DNA of 64,000 nt from Tetracentron sinense (lineage: Eukaryota; Streptophyta; Magnoliopsida; Trochodendrales; Trochodendraceae). The stretch covers positions 11,674,416 to 11,738,415 of the forward strand of contig CM026567.1 of the NCBI GenBank assembly GCA_015143295.1. The letters are read 5' to 3'. The position numbers and the translations under genes are program-made. The notes beneath the pieces are model-generated. The model did no database searches. It had not been told where the DNA came from and was given only the letters and a program-made list of their open reading frames with translations. This document shows, one piece after another, positions 3,904-55,307 of the stretch (its first letter is position 1; each line of letters starts with the position of its first letter).

Positions 3904-5310
3904 TGTTGGCCAGGTAATGACCCTAAAGGGGGGGGTGAATAGGGTCTAAGGCAGATTTAAAAAACAAAAATATGAACTACAAGTTCAATGAGCGGAATAA
4001 AGTAAAATATGCAACAAGCTAAAACAATAGAATATTAAAAGAAGGAGAAAAGAGAGAAGGAGAGTACAAACTCAAGATTTGTTCTCGAGGTTCAGCAAAC
4101 CAGCCTACTCCCCACCTCAGCTTCCAGCAAGAGGATTCACCATGATTCCTTAATCGCACTGGCTCCTTCACAGGTGGAGTCCAAACCCTTACAATCTCTC
4201 TTATAGGTCGAGATATTACCTTACAAGCTCTCCTTTAGGCTGAGCTGAAAACCTCTCAAGAGCACAACCCTCTCTTGATATAACTGAAGCAACAACTTCA
4301 TTACAAGAATCCTAGATTCTTGACTACTCTCAATAAATAAGTTTTGGATTGAAAAATCCGAATAGAAAGCTCCTTAAATGAGCTGGATAAGAGTGAAATA
4401 CAAACTCTAATAAAGTCTCTTAAAAAAATGTGAATTGAATGAGCTCAAGAGAAACTTTTGGGGATTTTCTAAGTGTGAGAGTGAGTGAAAATCAATAGCA
4501 ATGAATGAGGGATCAATAGGAGTTATTATAGTGATCAAGAGTTATTATTTGTTCATAAATGAACTCCTTTTATAATATTTGATCCAATAGTGCCGTTGGG
4601 GTAGCATTAAATGCTTTTAGGTCCGTTGCAAACTAGCCGTTACAAAAAATTTTCTGTTTCAGATATGATTTTGTCGATGAAGTGGAGTTCCCACTTGAGT
4701 TCGTCGCCGAATTCAAAAGACAGAATTGGATTTCAAAAAATCCTGTAATAACTTCGTCGCCGAATCTTAACCCAACCAAAGATTTCGACGCCGAAATCAA
4801 GAGGCAGAACTGAATTAAGAAAATTCTGTCATGACTTCGTCGCCGAATTCAATCTACCCAGAGAATTCGTCGACGAATTCAGAGCAAAAATTCTGAATTC
4901 AGTGTAGGATTAGACCAAAGGGATGCGATTGATTTTCTAGGTCAATTAGCTATGCTCTTATCATGATATTCTGAATAATTAGAGCTTTAGAGTGATTCTC
5001 AAAAGGTATCCTAGGCTCCTATGGTCAATCTTTGATTCTTGAGCTTATTCACTTCACCTTTCTTTTGAGGACTTTTTACATAAGTCCTATACATTCTCAG
5101 AATAACAAGTGAATACATTTAGAATGATGAGAGATTATCTTGGCTTGACTTGGGTCTTGTGATTTTGCCTTTTGTCTTCAATGGTCTTGACTTGGACTAA
5201 GGTCTTATCTTGAATCTTCATCTTGTATTCAGTGAGTTGAACTTCCTCTTGGGTAATTTCCATCATTTATTTTTCATGATTGGAGTGCTATCAACTTATG
5301 TAATCTGAAA
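3904..5310 (-). repeat. 5' LTR of the SIRE element
   Basis: Non-coding stretch between the PBS and the Tat gag remnant. The inner end reads TGTTGGCC on the plus strand, i.e. the element-sense LTR ends …CCAACA. A G-run (about 3930) and a TATA-like box (4562-4575 in minus sense) are visible. Upstream of the TATA in element sense, 4660-4890 carries a cluster of near-palindromes around TTCGTCGCCGAA, including a perfect GAATTCGTCGACGAATTC near 4863. Outer end estimated only; I could not pick out the target-site duplication. Confidence 0.75.
4562..4575 (-). promoter_or_regulatory. TATA-like box of the SIRE LTR
   Basis: Minus-strand ATTATAAAAGG within the LTR, about 90-330 nt downstream of the GTCGNCGAA palindrome cluster in element sense. 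Position within the LTR (650-660 nt from its 3' end) is reasonable for a U3 promoter. Sequence-only call. Confidence 0.45.
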
Positions 5311-5418
5311 TGTTCACGCAGTTAAACGGGTTTATTAGTACCAAATATTTCATTATATTATTATGTTATTATCAAAATTAGTAGGGGTACTTATGGTTGT
5401 AACCCTGAGGCTAATAGA

Positions 5419-6810
5419 TGTCGATCTATAAATAGAGAATCAAGACATGGCAGGACACCATGGATGCCTTTGTAGAACAATGCTCTTTTAATCAGGGTCT
5501 TCGGCCTCAACGAAGCCAATTAGAACAATTGTAACAATGGAACAATGAGTCGTTCCTGGAATATGCCACCCGATGGAGAGAAATGGCAGCAAAGGTCATC
5601 ACCCCTATCCACAAGGAAGAGCTGGCGAACATATTTTTAGGCATGTTGAAGCAGCCCTACTCTACACTGATGGTCACACTACCGGTTGTGGACTTTGGCA
5701 CAACAGTCAAAACAGGTGCCCGTATTGAGGCAGCAATACAGAGTGGAGCCATTCATTCCAGCCTAGGGCTTGCTCCCCTCAAAGCAGTAGCAGTAGCAGC
5801 TTCAACCAGCAGAAACAACAGTTACATAGACCAGAAGAGAAAAGAAAATGTTAACTTGGTAGCTCCCGCAGCGCCGATCAGATTACTGGCTCCGGCCACT
5901 CAGCAACAGCCAGCACCTGGAAACACCCGGCCGGCTAAATAGAACAAGGGGCAAGCCCGTTCCCCCAGGACCTTTACCCCTCTCCCTTACACACTTAGTC
6001 AACTTTTGGACTTCCTGACCAAGCAAGGTCTTCTCGAACTGAGAGGCACTACCCCTCTTTTACCACTAGACAAGAGGAACAAAAATTATGATGTCAACCA
6101 ACACTGCGCCTTTCATAGGGACCCGGGCCATGCAACCGATTACTGCATTGGTCTGAAGTGCGCTATCCAGGATCTCCTGGATACAGGATAAGGTCAAACT
6201 AGCTCCCAGCAATACCAGTATTGATCAGGTGCCACTGCCCCCACATAACAACCAAGTTACCTTTATTGAGTGGGAGGAGCCCGGGGTAGGGCAAACTAGA
6301 TCCAACGCACCCGCAGTCGATGATGGCATCATCAGGCCCTCGTACCGACCCCCAGTTATAATCCCTTTACCACATTCAAATGTTCAGGCCATCCAGACCC
6401 CAGTACAACTCCCCACTTTGGAATCAGACAAAGAGCAAATCATCTACACAATTCCCTGTACTGCTAGTTGGCCCACAACTTCAACCAAGGCCTCAACCTC
6501 CTCCGGACCAGTCAAAATCCCTTACATCCCTTCCCAGCCTTTTAACATTAATCATGTACCTGCCCCTCAATCTCTCATTCTGGAAAGTGAGTAAATAACC
6601 AAGCTCACCCGATCCGGTCGGGTGTATCAACCTCCGGCGGTTGAGCTGGTGAAAGAAAAGGGTAAAGAAAAAGCAGGGGTGGCAGGCCCAAAAAAGGAAA
6701 CAGCAGATTCAGCTCTCCTACTAAAAATATTAGAAAAAGCGGAAGAATTCAATATTACCCAGCAGTTGGCAAAACTCAGGCACAAATCTCTATCTTGGGC
6801 CTTCTCTTGA
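5419..6810 (+). pseudogene. Tat element gag
   Basis: Capsid and nucleocapsid region. Readable blocks: TWQDTMDAFVEQ (about 5445), FLEYATRWREMAAKV (about 5555), LANIFLGMLKQPYSTLMVTLP (about 5620), IHSSLGLAP (about 5755), FTPLPYTLSQLLDFL-like text (about 5975) and a knuckle-like CAFHRDPGHATDYC (about 6105). After that come a proline-rich linker and LTRSGRVYQPP (about 6605), then a lysine/glutamate-rich stretch. A second copy of the same gag family lies on the minus strand at 59259-60540, so the match is internal to the window. The left end grades into the SIRE LTR. Broken. Confidence 0.8.
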
Positions 6811-6839
6811 CTTCAGAGTATCATAGAAAATAACTTCTC

Positions 6840-14480: not shown

Positions 14481-14784
14481 TATGTTCTCGACACTCCATG
14501 TGTCTTCCGATCGATTCAGTTAATATCCCCCGGGAAACACCATTTCAATCAGTCCTCCTGCCGCTTCCGAGCAACACTTTCTTCCGGCCAATGCCTCTGG
14601 GCCACTCTATCCCTGCATCATGTTCTTCCCCAGCTACTCGCTATCCCCTAGTAGTAGTCTTCATTACTTCACCGTACTCAACATTTACATAGCACGCATA
14701 TCATCACTACTAACACCCATCTCGGTGTAAAAATAGAATGTTTCTAGTCTTTGCCATTCAATTGTCATCCTAACACTCTCTGGC

Positions 14785-19013: not shown

Positions 19014-19280
19014 TGTAGAACCCCGGACCTTTTCACAGTTAATACATGACACTCTCGTTGTCATTTTTGCCTTTTAAGAGGTATAATTAATAAATAAGGA
19101 AGAAATTGGAAATTTTGAAACATCAGAAATGTTCCTTTTCGAAGTACAAACACAACGCAAGTTGAATCGTCACAATCGGATGAACGAGTCAAAAGATATG
19201 GCCAAAACAGTCTGTACCTGTAGGAAATCGTAGCACAGACAACGTACTCTGATAACGTATACTGTGTGCATCCGTTGTAC

Positions 19281-20412
19281 AACTCACCACGGGCACGTTG
19301 TGCAGCTCACCACGGGTTGACACTATTCATGGCACCACGAGTTGCACTATTCATGGCACCACGGGTTGACACTATTCATGGCACCACGAGTTGCACTACT
19401 CATGGCACCACGGGTTGGCACTATTCATGGCACCACGGGTTGCACTATTCATGTCACCACGAGTTGACACTATTCATGGCACCACGAGTTGCACTATTCA
19501 TGGCACCATGAGTTGCACTATTCATGTCACCACGAGTTGACACTATTCATGGCACCACGAGTTGCACTATTCATGTCACCACGAGTTGACACTATTCATG
19601 GCACCACGAGTTGCACTATTCATGGCACCACGAGTTGCACTATTCATGTCACCACGGGTTGGCACTATTCATGGCACCACGAGTTGCACTATTCATGGCA
19701 CCACGAGTTGCACTATTCATGGCACCACGGGTTGACACTATTCATGGCACCACGAGTTGCACTACTCATGGCACCACGGGTTGGCACTATTCATGGCACC
19801 ACGAGTTGCACTATTCATGTCACCACGAGTTGCACTATTCATGGCACCACGAGTTGCACTATTCATGTCACCACGAGTTGACACTATTCATGGCACCACG
19901 AGTTGCACTATTCATGTCACCACGAGTTGACACTATTCATGGCACCACGAGTTGCACTATTCATGGCACCACGGGTTGACACTATTCATGGCACCACGAG
20001 TTGCACTATTCATGGCACCACGGGTTGGCACTATTCATGGCACCACGAGTTGCACTATTCATGTCACCACGAGTTGACACTATTCATGGCACCACGAGTT
20101 GCACTATTCACAGCACCACGAGTTGCACTATTCATGTCACCACGAATTGCACTATTCATGTCACCACGAGTTGACACTATTCATGGCACCACGAGTTGCA
20201 CTATTCATGTCACCACGAGTTGACACTATTCATGTCACCACGAGTTGACACTATTCATGGCACCACGAGTTGCACTATTCATGGCACCACGAGTTGCACT
20301 ATTCATGTCACCACGAGTTGACACTATTCATGGCACCATGAGTTGCACTATTCATAGCACCACGAGTTGCACTATTCATGGCACCACGAGTTGGCACTAT
20401 TCACAGCACAAT
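19281..20412 (+). repeat. 24/25-bp tandem array in the solo LTR, ~45 units
   Basis: Unit CACCACGAGTTGCACTATTC plus ATGG (24 bp), alternating with a 25-bp form (GTTGAC for GTTGC). Common variants are CGGGT for CGAGT and ATGTC for ATGGC. Pairs of the two forms recur, suggesting a ~49 bp higher-order unit. The long open frames across it only reflect the absence of stops in the unit. The related Tekay LTRs have GATCGATCGG palindromes at the same place instead. Confidence 0.93.
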
Positions 20413-21469
20413 GTGTTCAGCACTATTCACGGTCCTCGCGTCATTGCAGAAATCCCAGTAAGGGTATTACGGTCTTTTGGTCAGTTCACTCTTACCTTAA
20501 GAGTTTAACCCGAGCCTTTAGGGCTTCATTCGACACTTAGAGAGTTTGAGAGAATAGGAAAAAGGGGAGAAGGCGATTCCAACCTAGGGTTTCCATTTTG
20601 GAGAGAAATCAAAGGGTTTTGAAACCCAAGATCAACCTCCAGCCCATTTTCCTTCAAGATCAAGGCACAAACTCGTGAGGAGCATCTCCTCAAACTAGGG
20701 CAGCAGCTACACAGTCGTTTTGGAAAGGGGTTTCTTCCTCATTTCTTCAAGGTCGGTGCTTCTTACTACCCTCCTAGTTATAGTTCCTCTTCTCCCTCTA
20801 TTTCTTTTGATTTTTCTTTCATTGATACATGTGCTATGAGATGGATGAATGGTGAATGGAAAATGGTAAATGGTGAATGGAGATGGAATGGGCGATTGGA
20901 TGCCAATGGTTGTGTGTGATGAACAAATGGGGAAGGGCATTGTTCCAATAATGAACGGACATGTATGATTTGAGAAAAACCCATCTAGAAAAGCATGTTG
21001 TAGGGTAAATCCATAATGAACACACCATGTTTGATGAAATGCCAAGGTGAATAAAGTGAGCTGTGAATTAGGAAATGCATACCTAAGAAATTCTGAATAT
21101 TACTAGGGCCTATGATAGTGTGTTTCTTGCTTTCCCTAAAGGATATGAATATTACATTGCTCAATCATTGATGTCATATGTGTTGTGAAATTATCCAATG
21201 TCATATTTAAGTTTAAATGCAAGCATGTACACGGTTCCCACGAGCACGTCATGCATGACATGATTTATCGAGGTTTTCAAGAACATGGTTAGAGGTGGGA
21301 CATATCCTACGATATGTTTTACCTCGCTCTTGGCAAGGACAAGTCAATCATGCATTATCATAAGAAGGGTCTCCCATCCCCTCGCATGACATGCATAGCA
21401 TCGCATGACACGCATAACATAGCATTCACATGACGCGCATAACTCTGCATGGCATTACACGCATGGATG

Positions 21470-21555
21470 CTAGTTGCGACGGACTATGAACGGCAACTAG
21501 GCATACCCATCTGCATATAGGGTACTAGTTGCGACGGACTATGAACGGCAACTAG
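21470..21555 (+). repeat. Two identical 31-nt hairpins in the solo LTR
   Basis: CTAGTTGC…GCAACTAG stems of 8 bp at 21470-21500 and 21525-21555 around the same GACGGACTATGAACG loop region. The core is similar, in reverse complement, to the ~58 bp units of 18770-19013 and 22334-22680. Confidence 0.85.
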
Positions 21556-22333
21556 GCATGTGAACATGTTTAAATTATGAACAAGCAAGCATGATACTCG
21601 CATGACAAGCATGACATGACATGGCACGCATGATGCACGCATGATGCAAGCATGACAAGCATGACACGGTTAACAGGTTCACAATCACGCAAAGGGTATT
21701 TCAAGTCAAGTCAAGTGCACGATGTTTTCAAGGGTTTTATCAGTCTTTCTGAATGCAAGCATGAATATAAATTGCTTTACTTCCTTGTATGATATAAATT
21801 GTTCCTGTTCTATATATGCAAATTTGTTTCCTACTTTATGTATGCTATCTGTATACTATGACTGTTGGTTAGTATTTAGTACCCGCTGAGTATTCCATGC
21901 TCAGCCGTACTTCTTATGTCGGCAGGTTCTGAGGGAGCTGCTGCTCCAGTTGATGTTTGTGCTCCTGGCTCATGGGTGGAGGAGGAGTACGTCGAGGGGC
22001 CTTTGGAGGAACCTCCCGTAGAGGGTTACCATTAGGTGGTTGTAGATTCTGAGTGAATAGCTGTGGGTGAGATGAGAGATTATATCCACGTATTTTGGCG
22101 GGTCTGTCCGCACTTTCTTTTCGTTGTTTTTTGTATAAACTTGGATTGGCGTGTGTATGTACATAGAGGTTTGGTAGACTTCCGCTGTGCTTTATGGTCA
22201 TGCTTCCGCTGTTATCCTCTATCGTATATGCTCTGTGGGTTTTTGCAGGTTGGTTTGTCAAGCAAGTCATGTAAGCCATGATTAGTCGTCCAAAGTTCAC
22301 TCTAACTCCTAGGGTGGGTTTTGGGGCGCGACA

Positions 22334-31689: not shown

Positions 31690-34004
31690 TGTCGCGACCC
31701 AAAATCCCTTCTAGGAGTTAGGTGAGACTTTAGGTGTGACTAAACATAACCTGACAAACCATCCTGCAATTGAACAAGGCATATACATAGCAGAAGTATA
31801 AATCAGAGTACGGAAGCACAAACCAAAATTTTCCTTTTCTATACCTGATCAGTATTCCAAGTTCATATACAAGGTGTAACAAAACAAAGGTGGACATACC
31901 CACCTATCAAAATACTAAAAATCATAAAAAAAATTTCTCTCTCTCTCTCAATAGTCATCCGGGTAAGGCCAACTATCTAGGTCTCTTGCCTCCACCTGAG
32001 GCTCTACCATAGGCTCCATGTAAGGCTCCTCTTCAGCATAGTCCTCCTCGATCCAAGGAACCGGAGCACATATGTCGAACTGTGTACCAGCTGACATCAA
32101 TATGTACGGTTGAGTATGGAATACTTAGCGAGTACAAGCTACTAGCTCACTAGATATAATATAATTCAATTCATAATTTCAATTTTAAATAAACATGATA
32201 GTCATGACATGCATGAGACTAAATGCGAAAAGTCCGTATAAAACTCATGCTCATAATTCATCACTTGTTCTTGAAAATATCTTTTCGTGTTTTCAAAACT
32301 TGCTTATCGTGTTTAAGTCTCATTCTTGTCTTGTGAAAATCATGCGTGTCTTGTCTTGCTTCTCATTTCATGCTTGCCTTGTATTGCTTATCTTGTGAGC
32401 CAGATGTTAGTGCCCTTGTATTGACTTGTGAGCCGGACATGTAAATACCCTTCGACGAATTCTTGAAAGCAAGTTGTGAACCGAGTATGTAAATACCCTT
32501 CAACAAAAATAAAAAGGCACACCAACATCCTTGACCAGCCCAAGCATTATCATGCATGTCTTGTCTTGTTTTCTTGAAGTCAGATATGACATAGCCTTGG
32601 ATATGCCCTATCCTTGACCAACCCAAAGTATGGCTTTATCATTTGTTTTCGTAAATCACATGTCTTGTTCTTGGTTGTTTTTCATATACGTATACTAGAA
32701 AACTCGGTTCATGCATACATGTGTGCTTGTGTGTAGCAATTGGTGGACTTCATAGAAACATGAAAACACTTAGAAGACATCATATAGTATTTCAAACATT
32801 TCTATAGACATGTGAGATTTTAACTAAACATATAGAGCATGTTAGCAAAATTTCCAAATTGGGGAAAATCCTTAAATCATATTTTCATAGTCTTAGGTTT
32901 AAATCTCACATATGCATTTTATCGAACACATGACATTCAACATTTTAATAAACATTAACTTATATTCTCATAGTCAAACATTTCATCAAACACCTTAAGT
33001 GCATGTTTTATGTGTACATTTTCCTTCCCCATTTTCCATCATACAATAACCATCTACATTCTCCATGACATCAAATTTCACCTCAACCAATCCATACATC
33101 CCACACCATCTATATCCATATTAATTCATCTATACATTTTAGGAGAACATGGTTGATTCAAGAAAAGTAAACATGCAATCTTAATCCAACATTTATTTTT
33201 TAAAAACCTAGGTTATTACTAAGCCAACTAGAAGGGTGTACTAACCTCTTGAAGATAAATTCCTAGCTTGAAGAAAACCCTTGAGTAAGGACCCCAAGCT
33301 TGATGGAGAAGACACCACCTTGAGGAGGAAGATCCTTTCTTGAAGAAGATGATCCAAGTTTGATGGGGAAGATCCAAACCTTGATTTGAGCTTCACTTGC
33401 TCTCCAACCCAAAACCCCTAATTGGAATCGCTAATCTTCTTCCTTCTCCTTCCAAAATCTCCTTTAGTTTTAGGTTAAACCCAAAACCCCCAAATGGCCT
33501 TCTATTTATAGCCCAAGGGGTTGAAACCCCAATTTCCGTAACTCGGCACCCACGTGCGATTGATCGCACACCACCTCCGATCGATCGTAGCTTGCAGTGC
33601 GATCAATCGCACCTGGAGCTGATTTGTCACACATGAACCAGAACATTTCTGTCAAATTTCAACTGTATGTGATCGATCGTACACCATCTGCGATCGATCG
33701 CAACTTCACCTGAATGTTTTCTCAGTTTCCCTCTTACTGCGATCGATCTCACCTTATCTGCGATTGATCGCAAATCCTTTTTTTTTTTTTTTTCACCTAC
33801 AGATCCTTTGGAATGTTTTTACTATTCCCTTCACTCATCATGAGTGCTTACACTCTTTTACCTTGGCTTTAACACCCACACAACACATAAGAATTCGATT
33901 GCCAACTCTTTTATTCAATCACCATACACCAGCATATATAGAAGGTCTCCTTGACCAACTTACACTATTCACCCAAATAAGAATTGAAGTTTTGGGGTTT
34001 TACA
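31690..34004 (-). repeat. Solo LTR, Tekay-like, minus strand
   Basis: Plus-strand ends TGTCGCGACCC and GGGGTTTTACA; flanks ATTTT and ATTTC are a one-mismatch duplication. The minus-strand 3' end CTCCTAGAAGGGATTTTGGG is of the Tekay-family kind. It has TATAAATAGA at 33501-33510 (minus). Upstream of it in element sense is a cluster of GCGATCGATCGC-type palindromes (33540-33780). No gene; open frames here have no motif. Confidence 0.8.
33501..33510 (-). promoter_or_regulatory. TATA-like box in the Tekay-like solo LTR
   Basis: Minus-strand TATAAATAGA, immediately downstream (element sense) of the CGATCGATCG cluster at 33540-33780. Confidence 0.5.
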
Positions 34005-34445
34005 ATTTCTAAGACAAAATTCTTTTAAGGGGGAAGGATGTAGAGACCCGAACCTTATTCATGCCATTATGTGATTAATAAGGTTAGAATTGTCAAAGAT
34101 GTGTGCTCAATGCTAATCGAATGATGCGGTTGTTTAAAAATGCTAAAACGAATAAAAACATGGAAAAACAGAACCCCCGATCGATCGAAAGTTAGCGCCG
34201 ATCGATCGGAGAATGCCAGGAAATCTTCAAACCTACTTTGATCGCTATGATCGATCGTAGCATAGACTACGATTGATCAGAATGAATCTGGAAAAATAGG
34301 TGAGTTACTGTTCTAGTCCCATCGATGGCATTGTATGCGGTGATCGATCACACCTGCTAATCGATCACAATAATGTCCCGATCAATTGGAGTGTGAGCAC
34401 AGGAATTTTTAAGAACTCACGAAAATTAAGGTTTTAAAACCTCTA

Positions 34446-34455
34446 CTATAAATAG
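34446..34455 (+). promoter_or_regulatory. TATA-like box in the 34039-36075 LTR
   Basis: CTATAAATAG, downstream of the CGATCGATCG cluster; the same spacing arrangement as in the LTR at 52839-55307. Confidence 0.5.
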
Positions 34456-40953: not shown

Positions 40954-41213
40954 TTTATCGTAGTCTCTAAGGTAAAGAGTACTTAGGTGGAATCAAAACA
41001 GCTAGATCACTGCTCAGTTATAAATGAACTCATCAGATCGAAGGATCATCAAAACTGTTCAATGTGAATGAGAGACCAACTATCTAATAGTATGTTTATG
41101 CAAGAGGTCTCTCATTATTTGCAATCAGCCAATGTACATTTAAGCACCCATATACCGATGTGTAGTCTTCACTATAATAGTTTGAGATAAAACTACATCT
41201 CAGCCATTGAGAA

Positions 41214-43411
41214 TTTCGCGACCCGAGACCCACCCTAGGAGTTAGAGTGAATCTTGGACGACTAATCATGGCTTGCAAGACTTACTTGACAAACCAACCT
41301 GCAAAACCCACAGAGTATATACAATAGAGGATAAAAACAGCGGAAACATAGTCTAACATGGTACAACGGAAGTCTACCAAACCTCTATGTATATACATAC
41401 GTAAATCCATGTTTATACAAAAAGGCAACCAAAAGAAAGTGCGGACATGCCCTCTCTCAACTCACCCACAGCTATATCACTCAGAATCTACAACCACCTA
41501 ATGGTAACCCTCTACTAGAGATTCCTCGACGTACTCCTCCTCCACCTAAGGGCTCGGAGCACAGACATCGAATGGAGCAGCTGCTCCGCTATCACCTGCC
41601 GACATAAGAAGTACGGCTGAGCATGGAATACTCAGCGGGTACCAAATACTAACCAACAATCATAGCATACAGATAGCGATACATAGAGCAGGAAACAATT
41701 CACACATATAAAGCAGGAATAATTCATATCATAACAATAAAGTAAAGCAGTATATAATCATGCTTGCATTCATAAAAGCCGATAAAACTCTTGAAAACAC
41801 CGTGCACTTGACTTGACTTAAGGTACCATTTTTGTGCTTGAAAACTCATCTTGTCTATCTTGCTTGATTCTTGTATATCATGTCATGTCATGCATGTCAT
41901 GCGTGCTTGCTTGTGATCATGTAACTTGTGAGATACACTTGTGAGATATCCATGTGAGATGCACTTGAGAGGGAAGGGAGACCCTTCTTTATGCAATGCA
42001 CTTGAGAGGGAAGGGAGACCCTTCTTTATGAGATGCATGTACTTGTGAGGGAAGGGAGGCCCTTCTTTATGCTATGCACTTGTGAGTGAGGGGAGACCCC
42101 TCGTAGAAATATTGTTCTTGTTTTCTTGTGAAAAGTGAGGTAAAACATATCGTAGGATATGTCCCACCTCTAAACTTAGTTCTTGAAAACCTCGGTAAAT
42201 TCATGTCATGCATATCGTGCTCGTGGAAGCGTGTACATACTTGCATTTAAATTTAAATATGACATTTGGAGAGTTAACAACACATAGAACATCAATCATT
42301 TAAGCAATTCGATATTTATGTAATTTAGGGAAAACAAGAAGGCACACTATCATAAGTCCTAGCAATTTCCGCAATTAATTAAGCATGCATTTCCTTAATT
42401 TACAATTCATTTCTTTCATCTTAGCATTTCATCAAACATTGTGAGTACATTATTTGTTAAGCCTATCATATGCTTTTCTAGGTGGGTTCATATTCACAAC
42501 ATGCTTGTATGTTTATTATTGGTGCAATGCCCTTCCCCATTTCATTCATCACATCATCCACACGGCATCCATTCGCCAACATCCATCTTCATTCACCATT
42601 CACACAACCCATCTCATAACACATATATAGATGAAGGAAAAAAAAATAGAGGATAATAGGAATAAGGGAAGAAAAATAAAGAACTATGACTAGGAGGGTA
42701 GCAAGAAGTACCGACCTTGACAAATGAGGAAGAAATCCTCTTTGCAAATGTGTGTGAGCTGCTGCCCTCGCTTGGGGAAGATGCTCTTCACGAGCTTGAA
42801 CCGAGAACTTGAGGGAAAAACGAGCTTGAGTGATCTAGGGTTCTTAAAACCCCTTAGATTTCTTCTTCAAAGCATACCCTAGGGTAGGAAAACCCTTTCC
42901 CTCTTTCTCTAACTCTCAAATGTCCTAAGTGTTGAGAATGAGCCCTAAAGGCTCGGGCAACCCTTAAGAGAAAAGAGTGAAACGCCCAAAAGACCGAAAC
43001 ACCCTTACTGAAATTGCTGCAAAACACGATACACCGATCGATCGGTCGGTTGCCTACCGATCGATCGGTTTCATAACCGGGCGATTGGTTAAAAATCTAC
43101 TCTCTGGAAAATTTCCCCATACATAAATCTTGACCAGTCGATAGCCTCCGATCAATCGGTTTTGGACCGATCGATCGCTCCATGGACTGAGCGATCGGTG
43201 CTCTGCAGGTCCAAACTATTTTGGCCATATCTTTTGACTCGTTCGTCGGATTTCGACGATTCAACTTGCGTTGGGTTCGTACTTTGAAAAGGAACATTTC
43301 TGACATTTCGGAATTTTCAATTTCTTTCTTATTTATTAATTGTACTACATTAAAGACAAATTGGCTACGAAAGTACCATGTATTAAGCATGAAAAAGTCT
43401 GAGGCTCTACA
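41214..43411 (-). repeat. 3' LTR of the Tekay element
   Basis: Element-sense start TGTAGAGCCTCAGAC at 43411; the other end at 41214 is next to the duplication. Contains CCGATCGATCGGT palindromes (43030-43200), CGAGCCTTTAGGGCTCATTC (about 42940-42960), and three to four GAGGGAAGGGAGACCCTTCT repeats (41965-42100). It is matched along its length by 48588-50811. Confidence 0.93.
41965..42105. repeat. Short tandem repeat in the Tekay 3' LTR
   Basis: Four copies of a 30-50 bp unit centred on GAGGGAAGGGAGACCCTTCTT, itself partly self-complementary (AAGGG…CCCTT). The 5' LTR has the same units at about 49345-49490. Confidence 0.85.
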
Positions 43412-43425
43412 TCCTCCCCCCCTTA
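43412..43425 (-). promoter_or_regulatory. Polypurine tract of the Tekay element
   Basis: Minus-strand AAGGGGGGGAGGA directly before the LTR start TGTAGAGCC. Confidence 0.85.
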
Positions 43426-43511
43426 CAAAAATTTCATCCTCAAAATTTAGACGATACTTGCATTACAAACCAAGACAAAATTACAAGTCATATACAAAAC
43501 CTATACAAAAC

Positions 43512-45000
43512 TCATTCAAACAATTCCGGGTACTTCGCTTTGACTTCGGCCTCTCGCTCCCATGTAGCCTCTTCTCGAGCATGATGTTGCCACTGTACGA
43601 GAACCAACGGAATTGTTTTGTTGCGAATGACTTGATCTCTCCGATCCAATATATGAACCGGCCTCTCAACTAAAGTGAGATCCTCTCGAATTTCCAACGA
43701 TTCCAAGTCTATGACATGCGAAGGGTCCGCAATGTACTTCTGAAGCATAGACACATGGAAAACGTTGTGAACTGCGGCCATGTGAGGTGGAAGAGCTACC
43801 CTATAAGCAACCTCACCAACTCGCGTGATGATCTCGAACGGGCCAACATATCGAGGACTAAGCTTGCCTCGCCTGCCAAATCTAATAATCCCCTTGCTAG
43901 GAGATACCTTCACAAAGACTTGATCCCCAACCTGGAATTCCAAGTCCCTGCGGCGTGTGTCCGCATAGTTCTTTTGACGATCTTGAGCGGCTTTCAACCG
44001 ATCCCGGATGATCTTGACTATACTCGCAGTTTGCTCGATCAACTCCGGACCTAACACCTTTCTTTCTCCTACCTCATCCCAGTAGAGAGGAGACCTGTAA
44101 CTTCACCCATACAAAGCCTCGAATGGAGCCATTTAGATACTCACCTGATAGCTATTGTTGTAGGCGAACTCTACCAAAGGCAAGTGCTCTTCCCAACTGC
44201 CTTTGAAATCCAGCATACAAGCTCGTAGCATGTCTTTGATAACTTGGTTCACCCTCTCGATTTGTCCATCCGTCTGTGGATGAAAAGCAGTGCTAAAATC
44301 AAGTCGGGAACCCATAGCTTCCTAAAAACTTTTCCAGAATCTTGATGTGAATCTTGGATCCCGATCTGACACAATACTGACTAGCACCCCGTGTAGTCGA
44401 ACCACTTCCTTGATGTATAGTGCGGTTAACTGACTAGAGTTAAAGGTGGTTCGATAAGGCAAGAAATGCGTGGACTTTGTCAAACGGTCCACCACAGCCC
44501 ATATTGCATCTGAGCCCCTTGCCGTCTTTGGCAAGCCAACTATGAAGTCCATGGAGATGTTCTCCCATTTCCACTCGGGAATAGGAAGAGACTGCAATAG
44601 ACCGGCGGGTCGCATGTGTTCTGCTTTCACCTGTTGGCACACCAAGCACCGTGCCACGTATTCCGCAACATCCCTCTTCATATTCCGCCACCAAAAGTGA
44701 CTCTTGAGGTTCCGGTACATCTTCGTTCCCCCAGGATGCACAGTATACTTTGATCGGTGTGCTTCATCCATAATCTCCCTTCGAAGATCTACATTGGCTG
44801 GAACACACAACCTTCCTTTGAACGTAATAGCACCCCAGCTAGTGAGAGAGAAGTCCTCACTACCCTTAGCAACTTCCTTGTCCCGATAAGCCAACAATTC
44901 AGCATCCGTGGCTTGGTATTCTTAGATCAAATCTATAACGTATGGCCGAACCGTGACATTTTCCAAGATAGGACTACGGATAGAGTCATTCACACTGATG
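43512..45000 (-). pseudogene. Tekay integrase with chromodomain
   Basis: Zinc-binding domain with H-X-H (HRSKYTVHPG, about 44790) and C-X2-C (CLVCQQ, about 44640). Catalytic core with SMDFIVGLP (44545), VSDRDPRFTSRFW (44360) and FHPQTDGQIERVNQ (44270) holding the Glu. GPFEIITRVGEVAYRVALP (43780-43850) is the GPY/F module. The last ~50 codons (VHILDRRDQVIRNK…VLVQWQHH…EEATWE) form a chromodomain of the kind found in Tekay/Del chromoviruses, known to direct insertion to heterochromatin. Region broken in more than one place. Confidence 0.92.
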
Positions 45001-45029
45001 TCCAGATTTGCCAAATCTTCAAGTAGCTT

Positions 45030-46529
45030 TCATTCCTGCACCAACATGTGTGCTAATAACCCTGGAGGTCTTCTACTCAAAGCATCAGCCACTACATTTG
45101 CTTTACCCGGGTGGTATTGAATGGTACAATCATAGTCTTTCAAAAATTCCATCCAACGCCGTTGCCTTAGATTTAACTCTTTTTGGGAAAAGAGATACTT
45201 GAGACTCTTGTGATCTGTGAACACATAGAACTCCACCCTATAAAGGTAATGACGCCAAATCTTAAGTGCAAACACGACCGCCGCAAGCTCCAAGTCATGC
45301 GTGGGATAATTCTTTTCATGCTCTTTTAATTGCCTTGATGCATAGGCAATGACTTTCTTGTGTTGCATGAGCACACACCCAAGTCCAACGTGTGAGGCAT
45401 CACTATACACCTCATACCCATAAGGCCTGGATGGCACAGTAAGGACAGGGGCTGTAGTAAGCCTCTTCTTCAGTTCCGTGAAATTGATCTCACACTTGTC
45501 GCTCCATACAAACTTCGTATTCTTCCTTGTCAGGTAAGTGAGTGGTGCTGCAAGGCTGGAGAAACCCTCCACAAATCTCCTGTAGTAGCTTGCCAACCCA
45601 AGAAAGCTGCGTATCTCTGTGACACTCTTGGGCCTTGCCCGACGCATGACTGCCTCTATCTTCTTCAGATCTACCGAAATGCCTTCCGCGGATACAACGT
45701 GGCCTAGGAATGCCACCTCTTCCAACCAAAACGCACACTTGCTAAGTTTGGAGTATAGCTTGTGCTCTCGAAGCATTTCCAAAGCATGGCGAAGGTCTCG
45801 CATGTGATCTTCCCCTGTCTGGGAATACACCAAGATATCGTCGAAAAACACGATCACGCATCGATCCAGGTATGGCCGGAACACCCGGTTCATTAAATCC
45901 ATAAAGGCTGCCGGCGTATTTGTGAGACCAAAAGGCATTACCAAGAACTCGTAGTGTCCATACTGAGTTTGAAACGCAGTTTTAGGCACATCCTCAGCCT
46001 TGATCTTCAACTGGTGATAACCCGACCGAAGATCGATCTTAGAGAAAAATCTCGCTCCCTTTAACTGATTGAACAAGTCATCAATCCTAGGCAATGGGTA
46101 CCTATTCTTTATAGTGACTTTGTTCAACTGTCTGTAATCGATGCGCATACGCATCGAGTCATCCTTCTTCTTGACAAATAAAACTGGGGCACCCCATGGT
46201 GAGACACTTGGTCGAATGAAACCAAGGCCTTGCAATTCCTCCAACTGAGTCTTCAACTCTTTGAGTTCAATAGGGGCCATTCTATACGGAGCCCTGAAAA
46301 CAGGAGCTGTGCCTGGTGCAAGCTCAATCACAAACTCAATCTCCCTGTCTGGAGGCAATCCTGGAAATTCCTCTAAAAATACATCCAGGAATTCACTCAC
46401 AACCGAAATAGTCGATGAGTCCTTTGCCTCGGGGTTAGCTAAGCTCAATGCCGCAAAACGAGCAATATCTCTACTTTTCAACCCGCGAAAGTGGAATGGT
46501 TTTCCTTCTACTGGCTTGAAGAGTACCAT
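45030..46529 (-). CDS. Tekay reverse transcriptase-RNase H region (long open frame)
   Basis: One open frame of 499 codons. RT motifs in order: [42 protein letters not shown], the DYRQLNK block, [13 protein letters not shown], the catalytic FFDDILVYS (about residue 230), [27 protein letters not shown]. RNase H follows from about residue 365 with [14 protein letters not shown] (Asp), [13 protein letters not shown] (Glu) and [11 protein letters not shown] (Asp), ending [15 protein letters not shown]. It is part of a gag-pol polyprotein, not a separate gene; the ATG at 46529 is simply the first in the open stretch. All expected catalytic motifs are visible, consistent with a young copy. The element as a whole is broken. 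Confidence 0.93.
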
Positions 46530-46615
46530 TTTCTCAAAGCAATCTACATGCCCGTGATGTGCTACTAACTAATCCATTCCCAAGATGACATCGAAGTCTT
46601 GAAATTCGAGGATGA

Positions 46616-46870
46616 TTAGATCAACCGCCAACTTGTGGCTCCCCACTTGAACCACACGTTTCTATACACTTTATCCGCCAATACTGTCTTGCCAAAAGGA
46701 GTCGAAATGGCTAACTCCGGTTCTAGCTGACTGGGCTCCATAGAAAAGCCTTCTGAAAAACTCGACGAGACAAACGAATGAGTAGACCCGATATCAATCA
46801 ACACTCGAGCCAAACATTCATTGACTAGTAAGGTTCCTGAAACTTTAGCTAGCTAAGTCAATCCATGCAT
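46616..46870 (-). pseudogene. Tekay aspartic protease
   Basis: VLIDIGSTHSFVSSSF (about 46760-46805) is the retropepsin active-site block of Tekay/Del elements, between the gag knuckle and RT. It continues toward RT through a stretch with a hydrophobic second half (about 46560-46620). Confidence 0.8.
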
Positions 46871-47125
46871 CAACAGCGTATAAATATCGGTATATATATA
46901 CATATAATCATGCCATATATGTACATCATCGAATAATACATAACAAAACATTTTAAGGATAATTAAATAAACTACAACTGCATACCTTGCACTACATCGT
47001 CAGATGCAAGTGCATCACCCTCTGTCAAGGCAAAAACTCACCCCTGGTTCACCTGGCGAGGCGAAGGTGTAGATCAGGTGGTCTGGGATGATGCCTGATA
47101 TGATCCTGCTGGGCGTGCTAGGGGC
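46871..47125 (-). other. Gag-protease linker of the Tekay element
   Basis: Low-complexity linker between knuckle and protease, including an A/T-rich part (46870-46980) with TATATATATAC words. No domain recognised. Confidence 0.5.
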
Positions 47126-48235
47126 CTAATCCCCTAAGACTGGCCTGGTAAATGCCGACTGGGGCAATCCCTGATCACATGGCCCTAGCGACCACAATGA
47201 AAACATCCACCCGATGCCCTTCGGCAATCTCCTGCCGGGTGCCTTCAACCGCACGAAGTGTAGACCTTGTGTGTATAGGTCGCAAGGGCTGGAGGTGGAG
47301 CAGACCTCACCGTCTGAGGTGCAACTGGCCGTGGAGCTGGAAGGGCTTAAGGTCGCGGTGCCTAAGGCATGTACGGCCGTGCAACTGGAGGCGCATAAGA
47401 TGGCCTCATCGGTGGTGCTGGCCACGCATACTGATAAGGGCCAGTACGAGCCTGCCTCTCTAGAGGTGCTGAACTACTGGCTTGGCCTCTCGCCAACTCC
47501 CTCTTCTTGGACACGGCCTCAGAATTCGCCTCGACCAATAAGGCTTTGTCTACTCCCTCAGGGTAGGTAGCATGTCTGAAAACCGAAACCTTCTCCATGA
47601 TAACATCTTTGAGCCCTTGCTCAAACCTTCTCGCCTTCATTGCCTCGGTGGTAACCATGTGAGGCGCGAATCTAGAGAGTTCTGAGAACTTAGCCTCATA
47701 AGCGGCCACGGTCATCGAACCTTGCTCTAGGTTAATGAACTCTCTTTCTTTCTTCTCCCGTGCTCCAACAGGAAAGTACTTCTTATAAAAAAGTATCATT
47801 GAACTCCTCCCAAGTCCAAGGTTGACCCTGCATAGTCAAATCCCGTGTCCTCAATGCGAACAACCACCAATGGTGGGCCTCGCCCTCTAGCATGAAAACT
47901 GCCCAGGCTACTCTATCCTCCTCTATAGGCGAGAGGACCGCAAAGATCTTCTCCATCTGGAGGATCCACGCCTCCGCAGCAAGAGGGTCCACACTCCCAT
48001 GGAATGATGGAGGCCTCAATCTCCTGAATGCCTCAATTCCAGCTGTATGATATACTGGAGCTACGGGCGGTGGAGTAGGTGCCGTCGACGATGGTATAGC
48101 CTGTCGAGCCGCCAGAATGGCGAGAGTCTCAGCAATAGAGCCTAAGACCTGAGAGAAGTCCGGCTGCTCATCCTCATCTCGTGAAGAAGAAGAAGCTTTG
48201 GTATGTGGTCCACGACCCCGTGTACCCCGCCTCAT
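47126..48235 (-). pseudogene. Tekay gag
   Basis: The N-terminus MRRGTRGRGPHTKASSSS at 48235 is a typical basic Tekay start. LRPPSFHGSVDPLAAEAWI (about 48010) and MLEGEAHHWW (about 47890) are the retrotransposon-gag capsid block, followed by FYKKYFPVGAREKKEREFINL (about 47790-47730) and MTVAAYEAKFSELSRFAPH. A CCHC knuckle lies near 47168-47210. Capsid plus nucleocapsid; forms the virus-like particle. Contains breaks. Confidence 0.88.
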
Positions 48236-48573
48236 GACTAAAGTCCTGAGAACAATAGCACCACAGTCTCACTTGAAACCACAATTTATCATAGTTCTAT
48301 TTCACAAAAATTCCAATTTGTATTAGTTGTATAATAGTAATATACATCGCATCACAACCATCGGTGTATTTATAATATTATACCTTGGTGTTCTAGCGCT
48401 CCTAAGACTCGTACTTGGTTGAAACAATCATTTTGACTAAGACTAAAGTTTAGTCTTTCACTTGGATCAAGACTCGCTTCCGACTTACCTCCTCCTAACT
48501 TGTTTCCTAACATATGCTCTTGTCAAGCCGTGAAATTAGATCCTAAGTGACCCTAGAGACCTAAAGCCTAAGC

Positions 48574-48585
48574 TTTGATACAACT
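48574..48585 (-). promoter_or_regulatory. Primer binding site of the Tekay element
   Basis: Minus-strand TTGTATCAAAGC, a near match (about two mismatches) to the tRNA-iMet PBS TGGTATCAGAGC, just inside the 5' LTR end at 48588. Confidence 0.8.
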
Positions 48586-48587
48586 TC

Positions 48588-50811
48588 TGCCGCGACCCGA
48601 GACCCACCCTAGGAGTTAGAGTGAATCTTGGACGACTAATCATGGCTTGCATGACTTACTTGACAAACCAACCTGCAAAACCCACAGAGTATATACAATA
48701 GAGGATAAAAATAGCGGAAACATAGTCTAACATGGTACAGCGGAAGTCTACCAAACTTCTATGTATATACATACGTAAATCCACGTTTATACAAAAAGGC
48801 AACCAAAAGAAAGTGCGGACATGCCCTCTCTCAACTCACCCACAGCTATATCACTCAGAATCTACAACCACCTAATGGTAACCCTCTACTGGAGGTTCCT
48901 CCAAAGGTTCCTCGACGTACTCCTCCTCCACCCAAGAGCTTGGAGCACAGACATCGAATGGAGCAGCCGCTCTACCATCACCTGCCGAAATAAGAAGTAC
49001 GGCTGAGCATGGAATACTCAGCGGGTACCAAATACTAACCTACAGTCATAGCATATAGATAGCGATACATTGAGCAGGAAACAATTCACACATATAAAGC
49101 AGGAATAATTCATATCATAACAATAATAAAGCAGTATATAATCATGCTTGCATTCATAAAAGCCAATAAAACTCTTAAAAACACCGTGCACTTGACTTGA
49201 CTTAAGGTACCATTTTCATGCTTGAAAACTCGTCTTGTCTATCTTGCTTGATTCTTGTATATCATGTCATGTCATGCATGTCATGCGTGCTTGCTTGTGA
49301 TCATGTAACTTGTGAGATACCCTTGTGAGATATCCATGTGAGATGCACTTGAGAGGGAAGGGAGACCCTTCTTTATACAATGCACTTGAGAGGGAAGGGA
49401 GACCCTTCTTTATGAGATGCATGTACTTGGGAGGGAAGGGAGGCCCTTCTTTATGCTATGCACTTGTGAGTGAGGGGAGACCCCTCGTGGAAATGTTGTT
49501 CTTGTTTTCTTGTGAAAAGCGAGGTAAAACATATCGTAGGATATGTCCCACCTCTAAACTTCGTTCTTGAAAACCTAGGTAAATTCATGTCATGCATATC
49601 GTGCTTGTGGAAGCGTGTACATACTTGCATTTAAATTTAAATATGACATTTGGAGAGTTAACAACACATAAAACATCAATCATTTGAGCAATTCGATATT
49701 TATGTAATTTAGGGAAAACAAGAAGGCACACTATCATAGGTCCTAGCAATTTCCGCAATTAATTAAGCATGCATTTCCTTAATTTACAATTCATTTCTTT
49801 CATCTTGGCATTTCATCAAACATTGTGAGTACATTATTTGTTAAGCCTATCACATGCTTTTCTAGGTGGGTTCATATTCACAACATGCTTGTATGTTTAT
49901 TATTGGTGCAATGCCCTTCCCCATTTCATTCATCACATCATCCACACGGCATCCATTCGCCAACATCCATCTTCATTCACCATTCACACAACCCATCTCA
50001 TAACACATATATAGATGAAGGAAAAAAAATAGAGGATAATAGGAATAAGGGAAGAAAAATAAAGAACTATGACTAGGAGGGTAGCAAGAAGTACCGACCT
50101 TGACAAATGAGGAAGAAACCCCCTTTGCAAACGTGTGTGAGCTGCTGCCCTCGCTTGGCGAAGATGCTCCTCACGAGCTTGAACCGAGAACTTGAGGGAA
50201 AAACGAGCTTGAGTGATCTAGGGTTCTTAAAACCCCTTAGATTTCTTCTTCAAAGCAAACCCTAGGGTAGGAAAACCCTTTCCCTCTTTCTCTAACTCTC
50301 AAATGTCCTAAGTGTTGAGAATGAGCCCTAAAGGCTCGGGCAACCCTTAAGAGGAAAGAGTGAAACGCCCAAAAGACCGAAACACCCTTACTGAAATTGT
50401 TGCAAAACACGATACACCGATCGATCGGTGGTCGATACCGAGCGATCGGTTGCCTACCGATCGATCGGTTTCATAACCGGGCGATCGGTTAAAAATCTAC
50501 TCTCTTGAAAATTTCCCCATACAAAAATCTTGACCAGTCGATAGCCTCCGATCGATCGGTTTTGGACTGATCGATCGCTCTATGGACCGAGCGATTGGTG
50601 CTCTGCAGGTCCAAACTGTTTTGGCCATATCTTTTGACTCGTTCGTCGGATTTCGAGGATTCAACTTGCAATGGGTTCGTACTTCAAAAAGGAACATTTC
50701 TGACGTGTCGAAATTTTCAATTTCTTCTTTATTTATTAATTATACTATATTAAATGCAAATTGGCTATGAAAGTGCCATGTATTAAGCATGAAAAAGTCT
50801 GAGGCTCTACA
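48588..50811 (-). repeat. 5' LTR of the Tekay element
   Basis: Matches 41214-43411 along its length, with about 3% mismatch by eye. Plus-strand ends TGCCGCGACCC and GGCTCTACA. The GATCGATCGG palindrome cluster lies at 50415-50600. Next to duplication GAGAA at 50812. Confidence 0.93.
50415..50600 (-). promoter_or_regulatory. CGATCGATCGG palindrome cluster in the Tekay 5' LTR
   Basis: At least seven CCGATCGATCGGT or CCGAGCGATCGGT words in ~190 bp, the same slot as the 24-bp array of the solo LTR at 19014-22333. The flanking blocks (CTTACTGAAAT / GGTCCAAACTGTTTTGGCC) are conserved across the LTR group. Confidence 0.7.
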
Positions 50812-51110
50812 GAGAACATCTAAGCGTTGTGGCAGCCATATAAGTAAAGTGCCCAGCTTCATCCATAGCTATGACTATATAAGGTATAAGGAACTGGAAA
50901 GCTAAATCTACCCGTGTTAGTCCATAACCAATCACATAGCTTTCCTACAATATATCCTAGGGACCTTGTTCAATATCTCATATCGTATAGATCATCTCAT
51001 GATCTTGGTCAATTACCCATTATGAATTCACAATAGATAAAGAAGATGTCTTTATTTATTCAATAAAAATCTTACAATCTAAATGACTTTTTAGGGCATA
51101 ATTTCCAACA

Positions 51111-52838: not shown

Positions 52839-53607
52839 TGTAGAGACCTGAATCTTCTTCATGTTTTTTATTGCAAGTATTAGGGGTACTATAGTCCTTG
52901 TAATGTTTTAATGTTTATGTATTTATATCTAATTGGTATAGTGTGATTAAGGCTTAATCAAACTTGTAAACGGAGGGAATTCATATCACACCCTGAACTT
53001 TAGGAAGCTCTAGTTTTAGCACCGTTTATTAGAAGTGAATGATTCTTAAACTTTTAGAAAGGTATTGGAACCCTCTTCGAGGTTCATGTTTAATGTTTTT
53101 TCATAATTTTAGTCTAAGCTAAGTCAAAAGTGGGTTTTCCGATGTTTTGTCTGATGGAATTGCAGATCAGTCAAATTTGGGGACAATTTGATCCATAAAT
53201 AAAGGGGAATTTAGAAATTAAATATTCTTTTTGAAATACGAATCCAACGCAAGTTGAATCGTCGAAATCCGACGATCGAGTCAAATGTTATCGCCGAAAC
53301 AGTAAAACGGGTCAAAAATCTGTAGAACACCGATCGCTAGGGATCGATCGGTACAAAACCGATCGCTCGGTCAGAAGTAGTGATCGATCGGTCCAAAACC
53401 GATCGATCGGTATCTATCGACTGGTCCAAAATTTTGTATGGGAAAATTTTCCAGACAGTGTGTTTTTGACCGAGAGCTCGGTCAAGAGCACCGGTCGATC
53501 GGTAGGCGACCGATCGCTCGGTCATAACCACCGATTGCTCGGTCCTTTATGTTTTTGCAGAATTTCAGTAAGGGCTTTTTGGTCTTTTGGTCCTCAACCC
53601 TTGGGGC

Positions 53608-53617
53608 TATAAATAGG
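53608..53617 (+). promoter_or_regulatory. TATA-like box in the 52839-55307 LTR
   Basis: CTATAAATAG about 60 nt downstream of the GATCGATCGG cluster; a strong match to a plant TATA box. Confidence 0.6.
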
Positions 53618-54472
53618 GATCCTATTTCGGGGTATTAGAATACTCTACCTATTTCTAACCTAATTTGGTAAAAAGGGAGAGAAAAACCTAAGGTTTTGAG
53701 AGAGGGATTTCTTGGAGAAGAAGAAGATAGCTTGGGTATCGTTAGGAAAGCTTGGAGATCGTCCTCAAAGCTTCCCCAAATCATCTTGGGAGCGATTCGG
53801 ATCCAAGGGAAGGATCCCTAAGGTCGATAAACTCTCTAACTCAACCCTATTATTGATGTTTTGTGAATATTAGTATAATGTAAATGATAGAAATGGAGAT
53901 TGATTATGTTTTCCCTAATTATGTATGGATTAAGCTTGTTAGAGATGGAAATAGGTTTATACTATAGATTGATTGAATGGAGGAAGGGAAATACTATGGA
54001 GGATTGGGATGAATGTATGGATGTGGATCATGTTTGGGTTATGTGGATTGATTATGGTGTGATGGAATGTTAAGAATGTGAAAGGGCAAAGTATCCATAA
54101 TTAACGCACTCTAAATGTTTGTTGAAATGTCTAAGAATGATAAGTATTAGTATGATGCTTGTGATTATCAAGAAATTAAGTTAAATGGATATTGTTGTCG
54201 TTATGATAAATTAGGCCCTATTTACTTGTATGGTGATCGGTATTCGGGTAGGCTAAACCTTAGAGGAAAATCCTCCACATTGGGAATTCTCTAACTAGGG
54301 AGATGTAACCTAGTGGAGTTTCCTAACGGAAGATTGGAATCTAAGGGATGACTTATTTGAATTCCAATCACGACACTCAAGCACACGTGCACTTGCATGG
54401 TAAGTATTCAAGTCTCATGAGTCCACTTGTCTCACAAGCATGCATGCATTGGATACGAATATGTTACGAATT

Positions 54473-54605
54473 ATGCCATGAAAGAATGGTCCCCCACTAC
54501 GAACATCCACTCTACGCGTTGTCGCACTCATGTTAGGCTATGAAAGAATGATCCCCCATTACGAACATCCACTCTATGTGTTGTCGAACACTATGAATTA
54601 TGCGT
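54473..54605 (+). repeat. Tandem duplication of ~65-70 bp in the solo LTR
   Basis: CTATGAAAGAATGATCCCCC…ACGAACATCCACTCTA…GTTGTCG occurs twice in a row with few changes, followed by shorter GTTGTCGGGACAAA-type partial copies to 54660. Confidence 0.85.
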
Positions 54606-55307
54606 TGTTGGGACAAAACACAATGATTATGCGTTATCGGGACAAACACACTATGAATCATGCATGTATGAGTCTATGCATATGTTAAGTTAAGTTCATA
54701 GATAAGAATTTCACGAGTACACGAGTCAAGATGATGTTATGACATGTTATATGCTCCGCACTCTGATTATGTCTATTTTACGTGAAAGTATTATGATTAA
54801 GCATCGATAAACTGAGTTATGATATTGTTATTGCTCATGCTATTTTATGTTGTTAGTTTGTTTATCCACTGAGTATTCCATGCTCAGTCGACCTATCATT
54901 GTCTTCAGGTTTAGGAGGAGAGCCGTGGACCGAGGAGGTGTACGCCGAAGAAGAGGGAGAAGGTGAGCTTCCTGAAGGGGAGGCTAGGGATTTTGATAGT
55001 CATCCCTATTGAGTAGTTTAGTGTTTCTTTTTGGACGGGATGTTTATATTAGACTTTTTGACTCTTAGTTGATGTTGCCTTTGTTGTTTTACCCTATAGA
55101 TGGTTTTAGACTATTTCGTTATGATGAGCTATGGTGTGTGGACTATTATTGTACAGGATGGTTTGACTTTTCATGATCGAAATTTTATTATCCTCATTTT
55201 TGGAGACTCGTGTAGTATGCCTTGTATGTATGGATTTTAAGTAGGTTTATGTAATGTGACGATTCCAAAGTCCTATTTTAGCCTTGTAGGATTTTGGGGT
55301 CGTTACA

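Follow-up and report, generated by a model that had tools for sequence, protein, structure and literature searches.

Palindrome arrays in the window

In a 64,000-nt stretch of the Tetracentron sinense genome (GenBank assembly GCA_015143295.1, contig CM026567.1, forward-strand positions 11,674,416 to 11,738,415; hereafter the window), the long terminal repeats (LTRs) of several gypsy and copia retrotransposons carry clusters of short palindromes in the neighborhood of a TATA-like box. The palindrome clusters are real. All six that a preliminary description had listed are present (Table 1; the one of the LTR family F29 was given as 29505-29690), and a further array, which that description had overlooked, lies in the second LTR of the element at 50.4 kb.

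The latter element is a Ty3/gypsy chromovirus with LTRs of ~2.2 kb each (41217-43411 and 48591-50811; 95.4% identical) and a 5-bp target-site duplication, GAGAA, at 41209-41213 and 50812-50816. It contains the domains Retrotrans_gag, RVT_1 (1.5e-35), RT_RNaseH, Integrase_H2C2 and Chromo (2.5e-5; 24.5 bits, slightly below the Pfam cut-off of 25.1). It shares with the Del/Tekay chromoviruses both the Ty3/gypsy reverse transcriptase with a chromodomain and the long LTR, of 2.2 kb here; several Del groups have LTRs of 2.1-2.4 kb in a table of PMC4029996.

Table 1. Retrotransposons, palindrome arrays and TATA-like boxes in the window (spacings in nt).
Feature	Positions	Strand	Details
Ty3/gypsy chromovirus (50-kb element)	41214..50811	-	LTR pair, protein domains, target-site duplication
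Array ACCGA-TCGA-TCGGT, 5' LTR of 50-kb element	50415..50600	-	7 sites at <=4 mismatches; spacing 20,19,71,20,19,21
Array ACCGA-TCGA-TCGGT, 3' LTR of 50-kb element	43015..43205	-	6 sites; a 17-nt deletion hits one
Array of the related 53-kb LTR (W53)	53330..53550	+	10 matches at <=4 mismatches; spacing 10,19,21,19,14,57,21,19,21
Array TGCGA-TCGA-TCGCA, family F33	33540..33780	-	7 sites; spacing 21,49,21,70,22,21
Array of family F34, GATCGATC core, mixed arms	34170..34390	+	7 matches; spacing 21,49,22,49,22,38
Relative of the gypsy LTRs	19014..22331	+	24-nt tandem array (19308-20403) in the relatives' palindrome slot
Array GAATTCG-TCGA-CGAATTC, Sirevirus LTR	4660..4890	-	6 sites at <=6/18 mismatches; spacing 30,52,31,53,30
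Array AGGG-TCGA-CCCT and TTGGG-TCGA-CC(C/G)AA, Ty1/copia LTR family F29	29520..29685	+	
TATAAATA TATA-like box, 53-kb LTR	53608..53615	+	71 nt past last palindrome centre
TATAAATA TATA-like box, family F33	33503..33510	-	
TATAAATA TATA-like box, family F34	34447..34454	+	
TATAAAG box, family F29	29770..29776	+	
TATA-like TATTATAAAA, Sirevirus LTR	4568..4577	-	

We scanned the window together with two random blocks of 100 kb (264 kb in all), taking as a strict palindrome a 14-mer with at most one mismatched pair, and as a strict cluster at least four of these in 260 nt. Six strict clusters were found, against none in each of five shuffles of the survey, and the 200 kb of random blocks held none. 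They are the gypsy LTR arrays at 33.6, 34.2, 43.0, 50.4 and 53.4 kb and a group of TTAACCATGGTTAA quasi-palindromes at 17.3 kb, while the two copia arrays (29.5 kb, and the Sirevirus array at 4.7 kb) stay below this threshold and are weaker than the gypsy arrays. Enrichment over dinucleotide-shuffled sequence, proposed as a check in the preliminary description, held at all six named clusters relative to the mean of 500 shuffles of the same stretch, and at three of the six relative to the best shuffle. These three are the F33 array with 6 strict 14-mers (shuffle mean 0.31, maximum 3), the 53-kb array with 8 (0.43, 4) and the F29 array with 3 (0.18, 2). The F34 array has 4 (0.37, 4), and its 4 perfect 10-mers lie above the shuffle maximum of 2; the 50.4-kb array, with 4 (0.46, 5), and the Sirevirus array, with 2 (0.26, 3), exceed only the mean. 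A relaxed scan returned four TCGA clusters, all inside the window (it missed the arrays at 50 and 53 kb), four GCGC clusters, which are the 24-nt array of CACCACGAGTTGCACTATTCATGG type in the LTR at 19 kb, and no ACGT or CCGG clusters. The random blocks contained two primer-binding-site matches, one belonging to an LTR with a weaker array of three strict palindromes (L021), the other to a candidate with no array (L020).

The TTAACCATGGTTAA quasi-palindromes form groups at 17050-17533, 25131-25457 and 39038-39223, arranged partly as 19/23-nt triplets. The 17-kb group adjoins 20-nt CCTACCGGGCC repeats, and no TATA box was seen in the stretch read (to 18300).

As the preliminary description had stated, the clusters lie upstream of the TATA-like boxes, with ~50-110 nt between the last palindrome centre and the box. 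The 50.4- and 43-kb LTRs gave no TATA match; TATATAG occupies the corresponding place in four of eight sibling copies. This distance is stable within F33, where 23 of 25 oriented copies have the TATA box at 423-436, a 14-nt range, but in F34 a match at such a range was present in only part of the 20 copies.

One gypsy lineage and the copia LTRs

The preliminary description had credited each LTR family with a private cluster. This is an overcount, because the four CGATCGATCG clusters share a common ancestry. Profiles built with the palindromes masked link F33 to F34 (5.9e-12), F34 to W53 (8.9e-10), F33 to W53 (1.2e-5) and the 50-kb set to W53 (1.3e-17), the best reversed control being 0.1, and they rule out six independent families or designs. 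Masked profiles of F33 or F34 compared directly with the 50-kb set give just 0.03-0.96. Judged by these profiles, the four clusters belong to one Ty3/gypsy lineage, F33 and F34 being joined to the 50-kb element via W53; the F33, F34 and 53-kb LTRs are tied to the chromovirus by LTR homology only, the domains having been read in the 50-kb element. The masked F33 and F34 matches mostly span the array end through the TATA box. Site-by-site correspondence rests on the unmasked profiles, which are colinear over the array for F33-F34 and F34-W53. Words similar to GATCGATC (at most one mismatch) occur 4-9 times per copy in each of the 25 F33 and 20 F34 copies. Without the weak match at 53419, the 53-kb array has a gap of 71 nt.

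The LTR at 4.7 kb is identified as that of a Sirevirus (copia) from its end signature, since the LTR end and primer-binding-site (PBS) junction, read by eye, run ...CACCCCCCCCTTTAGGG...CAACA ATTGGTATCAGAGC with a C-run. Family F29 is assigned to Ty1/copia on the strength of a copia gag frame behind the LTR and PBS of one copy (L075), and its family alignment contains six sites at a spacing of 20,62,22,22,22. A non-Sirevirus copia was initially preferred for F29. A pol piece close to a different LTR of this family (L076) is 40% identical over 123 aa to the window's other copia and 25% over 185 aa to the Sirevirus. The non-Sirevirus assignment was withdrawn: L076 shows no PBS, so that the piece may not belong to F29, and the L075 gag matches the gag of the window's Sirevirus (29% over 76 aa, 8e-8) and shows no resemblance to that of the other copia. 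The LTR L021, which is related to F29, also has a C-run near its end. F29 is possibly Sirevirus-related, and the extension of the array design beyond the Sireviruses rests on the gypsy lineage.

A common TCGA centre and helical spacing

The commonest form of the array palindromes has a TCGA centre, from which individual sites deviate: the gypsy lineage has GA-TCGA-TC, F29 GG-TCGA-CC, the Sirevirus CG-TCGA-CG and L021 GT-TCGA-AC. A TCGA centre with family-specific arms, common to gypsy and copia arrays, appears to be new.

For each 8-mer palindrome, pairs of occurrences within 30 nt were counted genome-wide against the reversed word, and spacing was measured on the first 50 listed pairs per word (of 735 to 22,558), from one or two chromosomes. 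The word GATCGATC forms 22,558 pairs (reversed control 39), and 43 among the first 50 listed are 19-23 nt apart; GGTCGACC forms 7,258 (control 8), and all of the first 50 listed fall in this range. The CGTCGACG pairs (735; control 40) separate into two classes among the first 50 listed, 14 at 21 nt and 36 at 30-32, with none between. The word GTTCGAAC, with 1,080 pairs, shows no excess over the reversed word (1,178), and the spacing alone is informative: of the first 50 listed, 39 are 19-23 nt apart and 8 are 29-31 nt apart. The control palindrome GGAGCTCC has 149 pairs (reversed 62), 5 among the first 50 listed being at 19-23, and GGACGTCC has 29 (reversed 0), with 3 of the 29 in that range. 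With the same GG..CC arms, the TCGA centre yields 7,258 pairs, against 29 for ACGT and 149 for AGCT. Among the listed pairs, most palindromes are thus two helical turns (19-23 bp) or three (29-32 bp) apart.

Conservation of sites and turnover of arms

We compared diversity (pi) between non-CpG palindrome columns and non-CpG spacer columns by column permutation. The palindromes are the more conserved in F33 (25 copies; 0.100 versus 0.236, p 0.0001; six of seven sites labelled, the seventh having fallen in the segment from cluster to TATA), F34 (20 copies; 0.187 versus 0.364, p 0.0001) and F29 (10 copies; 0.114 versus 0.340, p 0.0001). The same holds for the gypsy set (10 copies; 0.021 versus 0.077, p 0.03), with four of seven sites labelled and conservation at one of them biased, as the copies L001-L008 had been picked by a word inside it. 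L073 was excluded from alignment A2 and 4 of 20 F34 rows from A3. The T and A flanking the central CG of the F33 sites, with pi of 0.007-0.013, vary less than the TATA box (0.031). The 53-kb LTR differs from ten copies of the 50-kb family at a proportion of 0.057 of the columns in the arms, 0.181 in the core and 0.277 in the spacers, and at 58% of those downstream. The two- or three-turn spacing of pairs and the conservation of palindrome columns above spacers appear to be new.

The arms differ between related LTRs, being TGCGA or ACCGA within the single gypsy lineage. Homology between the copia LTRs F29 and L021 covers the part beyond the TATA box (63%, 9e-39) and a short block upstream (70%, 1e-5; best reversed match 0.085), and the array stretches of the two give no alignment once the palindromes are masked. 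L021 has a spacing of 20,61,21,20,21 after two weak matches (8159, 8241) are dropped, the first site having the centre TTCCAA. The two LTRs agree in site number, centre and spacing and differ in their arms, AGGG/TTGGG in F29 and GTGGT/GGCGT in L021. That related LTRs keep site number and spacing while the arms change likewise appears to be new.

The arrays could also be a mutational by-product, in which slippage and template switching at quasi-palindromes make and homogenise units of 20-30 nt without any function. The joint change of arms between related LTRs is what unit homogenisation would produce, an 83-nt tandem repeat makes up part of the Sirevirus array, and a 24-nt array fills the slot of the LTR at 19014-22331. 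In F33, F34 and F29, however, the spacers are mostly dissimilar while the palindromes are alike, unlike the outcome of plain tandem duplication, and the palindrome columns are conserved over the spacers. We consider this origin improbable. Hairpin or quasi-palindrome repair as the source of the symmetry was set aside, left-right covariation giving it little support.

The arrays might instead be CpG-dense islands or decoys that modulate silencing through methylation, their palindromy following from the self-complementarity of CG. With observed/expected CpG ratios of 1.4-1.8, the Sirevirus array and all five gypsy arrays fit this idea, as do the plastic 5' CpG islands of monocot Del elements (PMC4029996) and the CpG islands formed from Sirevirus motifs (PMC2829016). 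Yet the window copy at 29.5 kb has a ratio of 0.39 and has kept both spacing and palindromes; the terminal T/A of the F33 palindrome, which lies outside any CpG, is conserved (pi 0.052); and CpG density alone does not produce a 21-bp spacing. This explanation seems to us the least probable of those considered here.

Duplex DNA or folded RNA

The preliminary description had also raised an RNA-structure architecture. In the element RNA, U3 is at the 3' end, and the palindromes and their neighbours may form stems there, which would serve the element itself or be processed into small RNAs by host dicing. Strong folding agrees with this part of the proposal: the four clusters that were folded have z-scores of -6.7, -4.8, -5.7 and -3.5, and RNAalifold reports double-changed pairs at 5/44, 12/42 and 9/27. 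A published link between palindrome clusters and small RNAs points the same way (PMC10760457, PMC5311732). The covariation data agree less well. Compensatory change within the palindromes is not in excess in F33 (8 site groups) or F29 (6 sites), and the RNAalifold covariation terms are near zero (-0.02, -0.5, -0.1). In F34 the effect is marginal, arm position 5 being paired in 98 of 166 cases versus 87.9 expected within sites (p 0.03; p 0.0005 pooled over sites); in both F33 and F34, one or two of the grouped sites lie outside the arrays. In F29, columns 105-112 and 146-153 of alignment A1 form an 8-bp inverted repeat around sites 4 and 5 with compensatory changes, 8 double-changed cells being reached by 2 of 500 shuffles and slid controls giving 0-1, although this helix was chosen after inspecting the fold.

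On the sense strand there is no preference for changes that keep a wobble pair, the arms showing TG 32 versus CA 72 in F33, 69 versus 65 in F34 and 1 versus 9 in the gypsy set; for an antisense RNA the reading would be the opposite. The F33 figures, from the window array and 24 further copies, are at the same time a skew of CpG change in the arms on the sense strand. Helical spacing, including a 31-bp class without intermediates, is unexpected for RNA and natural for proteins on duplex DNA. Given the weak or absent compensatory change together with this phasing, recognition of duplex DNA is favoured; silencing based on hairpins is possible, and as a general account of the arrays we regard RNA hairpins as unlikely.

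A putative array of dimer-binding sites

We propose that each palindrome is a putative site for a DNA-binding protein dimer, with like half-sites facing each other around the TCGA centre, and that a row of about 6-10 such sites may serve the LTR promoter as an enhancer, an array of upstream activating sites. Neighbouring dimers would be two, sometimes three, helical turns apart and would therefore lie on the same face of the DNA, where cooperative binding is possible. Centre and spacing would be held, while the arms, which differ at most or all sites between related LTRs, would set which member of a protein family recognises the array. Protein binding, activation of transcription and a specificity encoded in the arms are what we infer from the observed clusters, their relatedness, spacing, conservation and arm differences. 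We give a dimer-binding array with exchangeable arms, acting as upstream activator of the LTR, a probability of about 0.55, and a host factor family seems the likelier putative binder than an element-encoded factor.

Several observations weigh against this proposal. The spacing counts are not independent, given that copies inherit their spacing, and amount to about four independent observations rather than hundreds; similarly, the column permutations ignore the relatedness of the copies. The control palindrome GGACGTCC has a spacing peak of its own at 28 (17 of 29), and the larger gaps in the arrays (49, 62 and 70 nt) do not all come to a whole number of helical turns. Within the sites, the sixth arm position, counted from the centre, varies freely in both F33 and F34 (pi 0.33-0.43), and the CpGs of the F33 palindromes are variable (pi 0.26), so that these sites are probably methylated in many copies. 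No single known factor accounts for the arrays, because the arms vary across families. Finally, compensatory changes do occur in the one F29 helix.

A broader proposal would be that the promoters of gypsy and copia LTRs in this genome share a common code, in which a fixed TCGA centre and the two- or three-turn spacing are combined with interchangeable arms. The arms would serve as a family address for fast-diversifying dimeric proteins, of the host or of the element, and families might thereby avoid cross-activation or shared silencing. We consider this doubtful. To the preliminary description the architecture had looked convergent; it does occur in both gypsy and copia elements, but convergence could apply at most between the gypsy lineage and copia, and not among the four CGATCGATCG clusters.

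Other repeats and reading frames

Outside the arrays, nested tandem repeats of 123, 139 and 246 nt occupy 13571-14487, and an open reading frame at 62487-63068 matches DUF7745 and the plant mobile domain. Elsewhere in the genome, at C1:20,034,274-20,049,812 (L012-L013), a pair of 3.0-kb repeats that are 99.9% identical, with tandem arrays of ~123-nt step between them, is probably a very recent LTR element.

Comparison with known systems

The preliminary description knew of no named feature of this kind, but Bousios et al. (2010) had reported palindromic repeated motifs (RM boxes), family-specific and upstream of the TATA box, in Sireviruses (PMC2829016). These were reported as Sirevirus-specific, absent from the other Ty1/copia elements studied, and mostly with a CGG-CCG core. 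The 4.7-kb Sirevirus array resembles them in its proximity to a TATA-like box, ~100 nt away, and differs in its number of palindromic copies within the LTR (six, where RM boxes have at least eight) and in its core, TTCG-TCGA-CGAA. Two RM motifs, Vitis CGGTCGACCG and Tnd-1 ACAATCGATTGT, have a TCGA centre like the window arrays, and Tnd-1 is likewise an exception to the CGG-CCG core. The window arrays depart from the RM boxes in the presence of the design in a Ty3/gypsy chromovirus lineage, outside the Sireviruses as judged by the domains of the 50-kb element, in their TCGA centre, and in a helical spacing rule that is unmentioned for RM boxes in the sections of PMC2829016 drawn on. In the portions of the open-licence literature covered, we found no report of palindrome arrays upstream of the TATA box in gypsy LTRs, nor of such a spacing rule. 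Palindromes as integration targets (PMC6911290) were set aside, as they concern insertion sites and not LTR arrays.

If the arrays are indeed also a gypsy design, they would provide an entry point to the activation or marking of highly abundant plant repeats, the abundance being apparent from the 22,558 genomic pairs of GATCGATC. Conserved spacing with exchangeable arms also leads to a prediction that DNA-binding assays can address directly, and tells recognition of DNA apart from models based on hairpins.

Three further systems bear comparison. In maize Sireviruses, palindrome clusters in the LTR cis-region have been tied to the host small-RNA response (Bousios et al. 2016, via PMC10760457 and PMC5311732); the arrays described here are likewise clusters in the LTR cis-region, while the maize work concerns small RNAs. 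Cruz et al. (2014) described plastic 5' CpG islands in the Del LTRs of monocot groups and not of the eudicot group (PMC4029996). These islands resemble our gypsy arrays in belonging to a long-LTR gypsy element, probably of the same lineage, and in occupying the same slot, within the 5' portion of the LTR, in a group-variable manner, although 'palindrom' is absent from the main text of that article. The target motifs of VANC proteins in VANDAL transposons are short, family-private, repeated in non-coding parts and change together (PMC5735166), as do the motifs of the window arrays; VANDALs, however, are DNA transposons with a binding protein encoded by the element, and 'palindrom' does not occur in the main text of PMC5735166. 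Taken together, these comparisons suggest that an array design known from Sireviruses extends here to a gypsy lineage.

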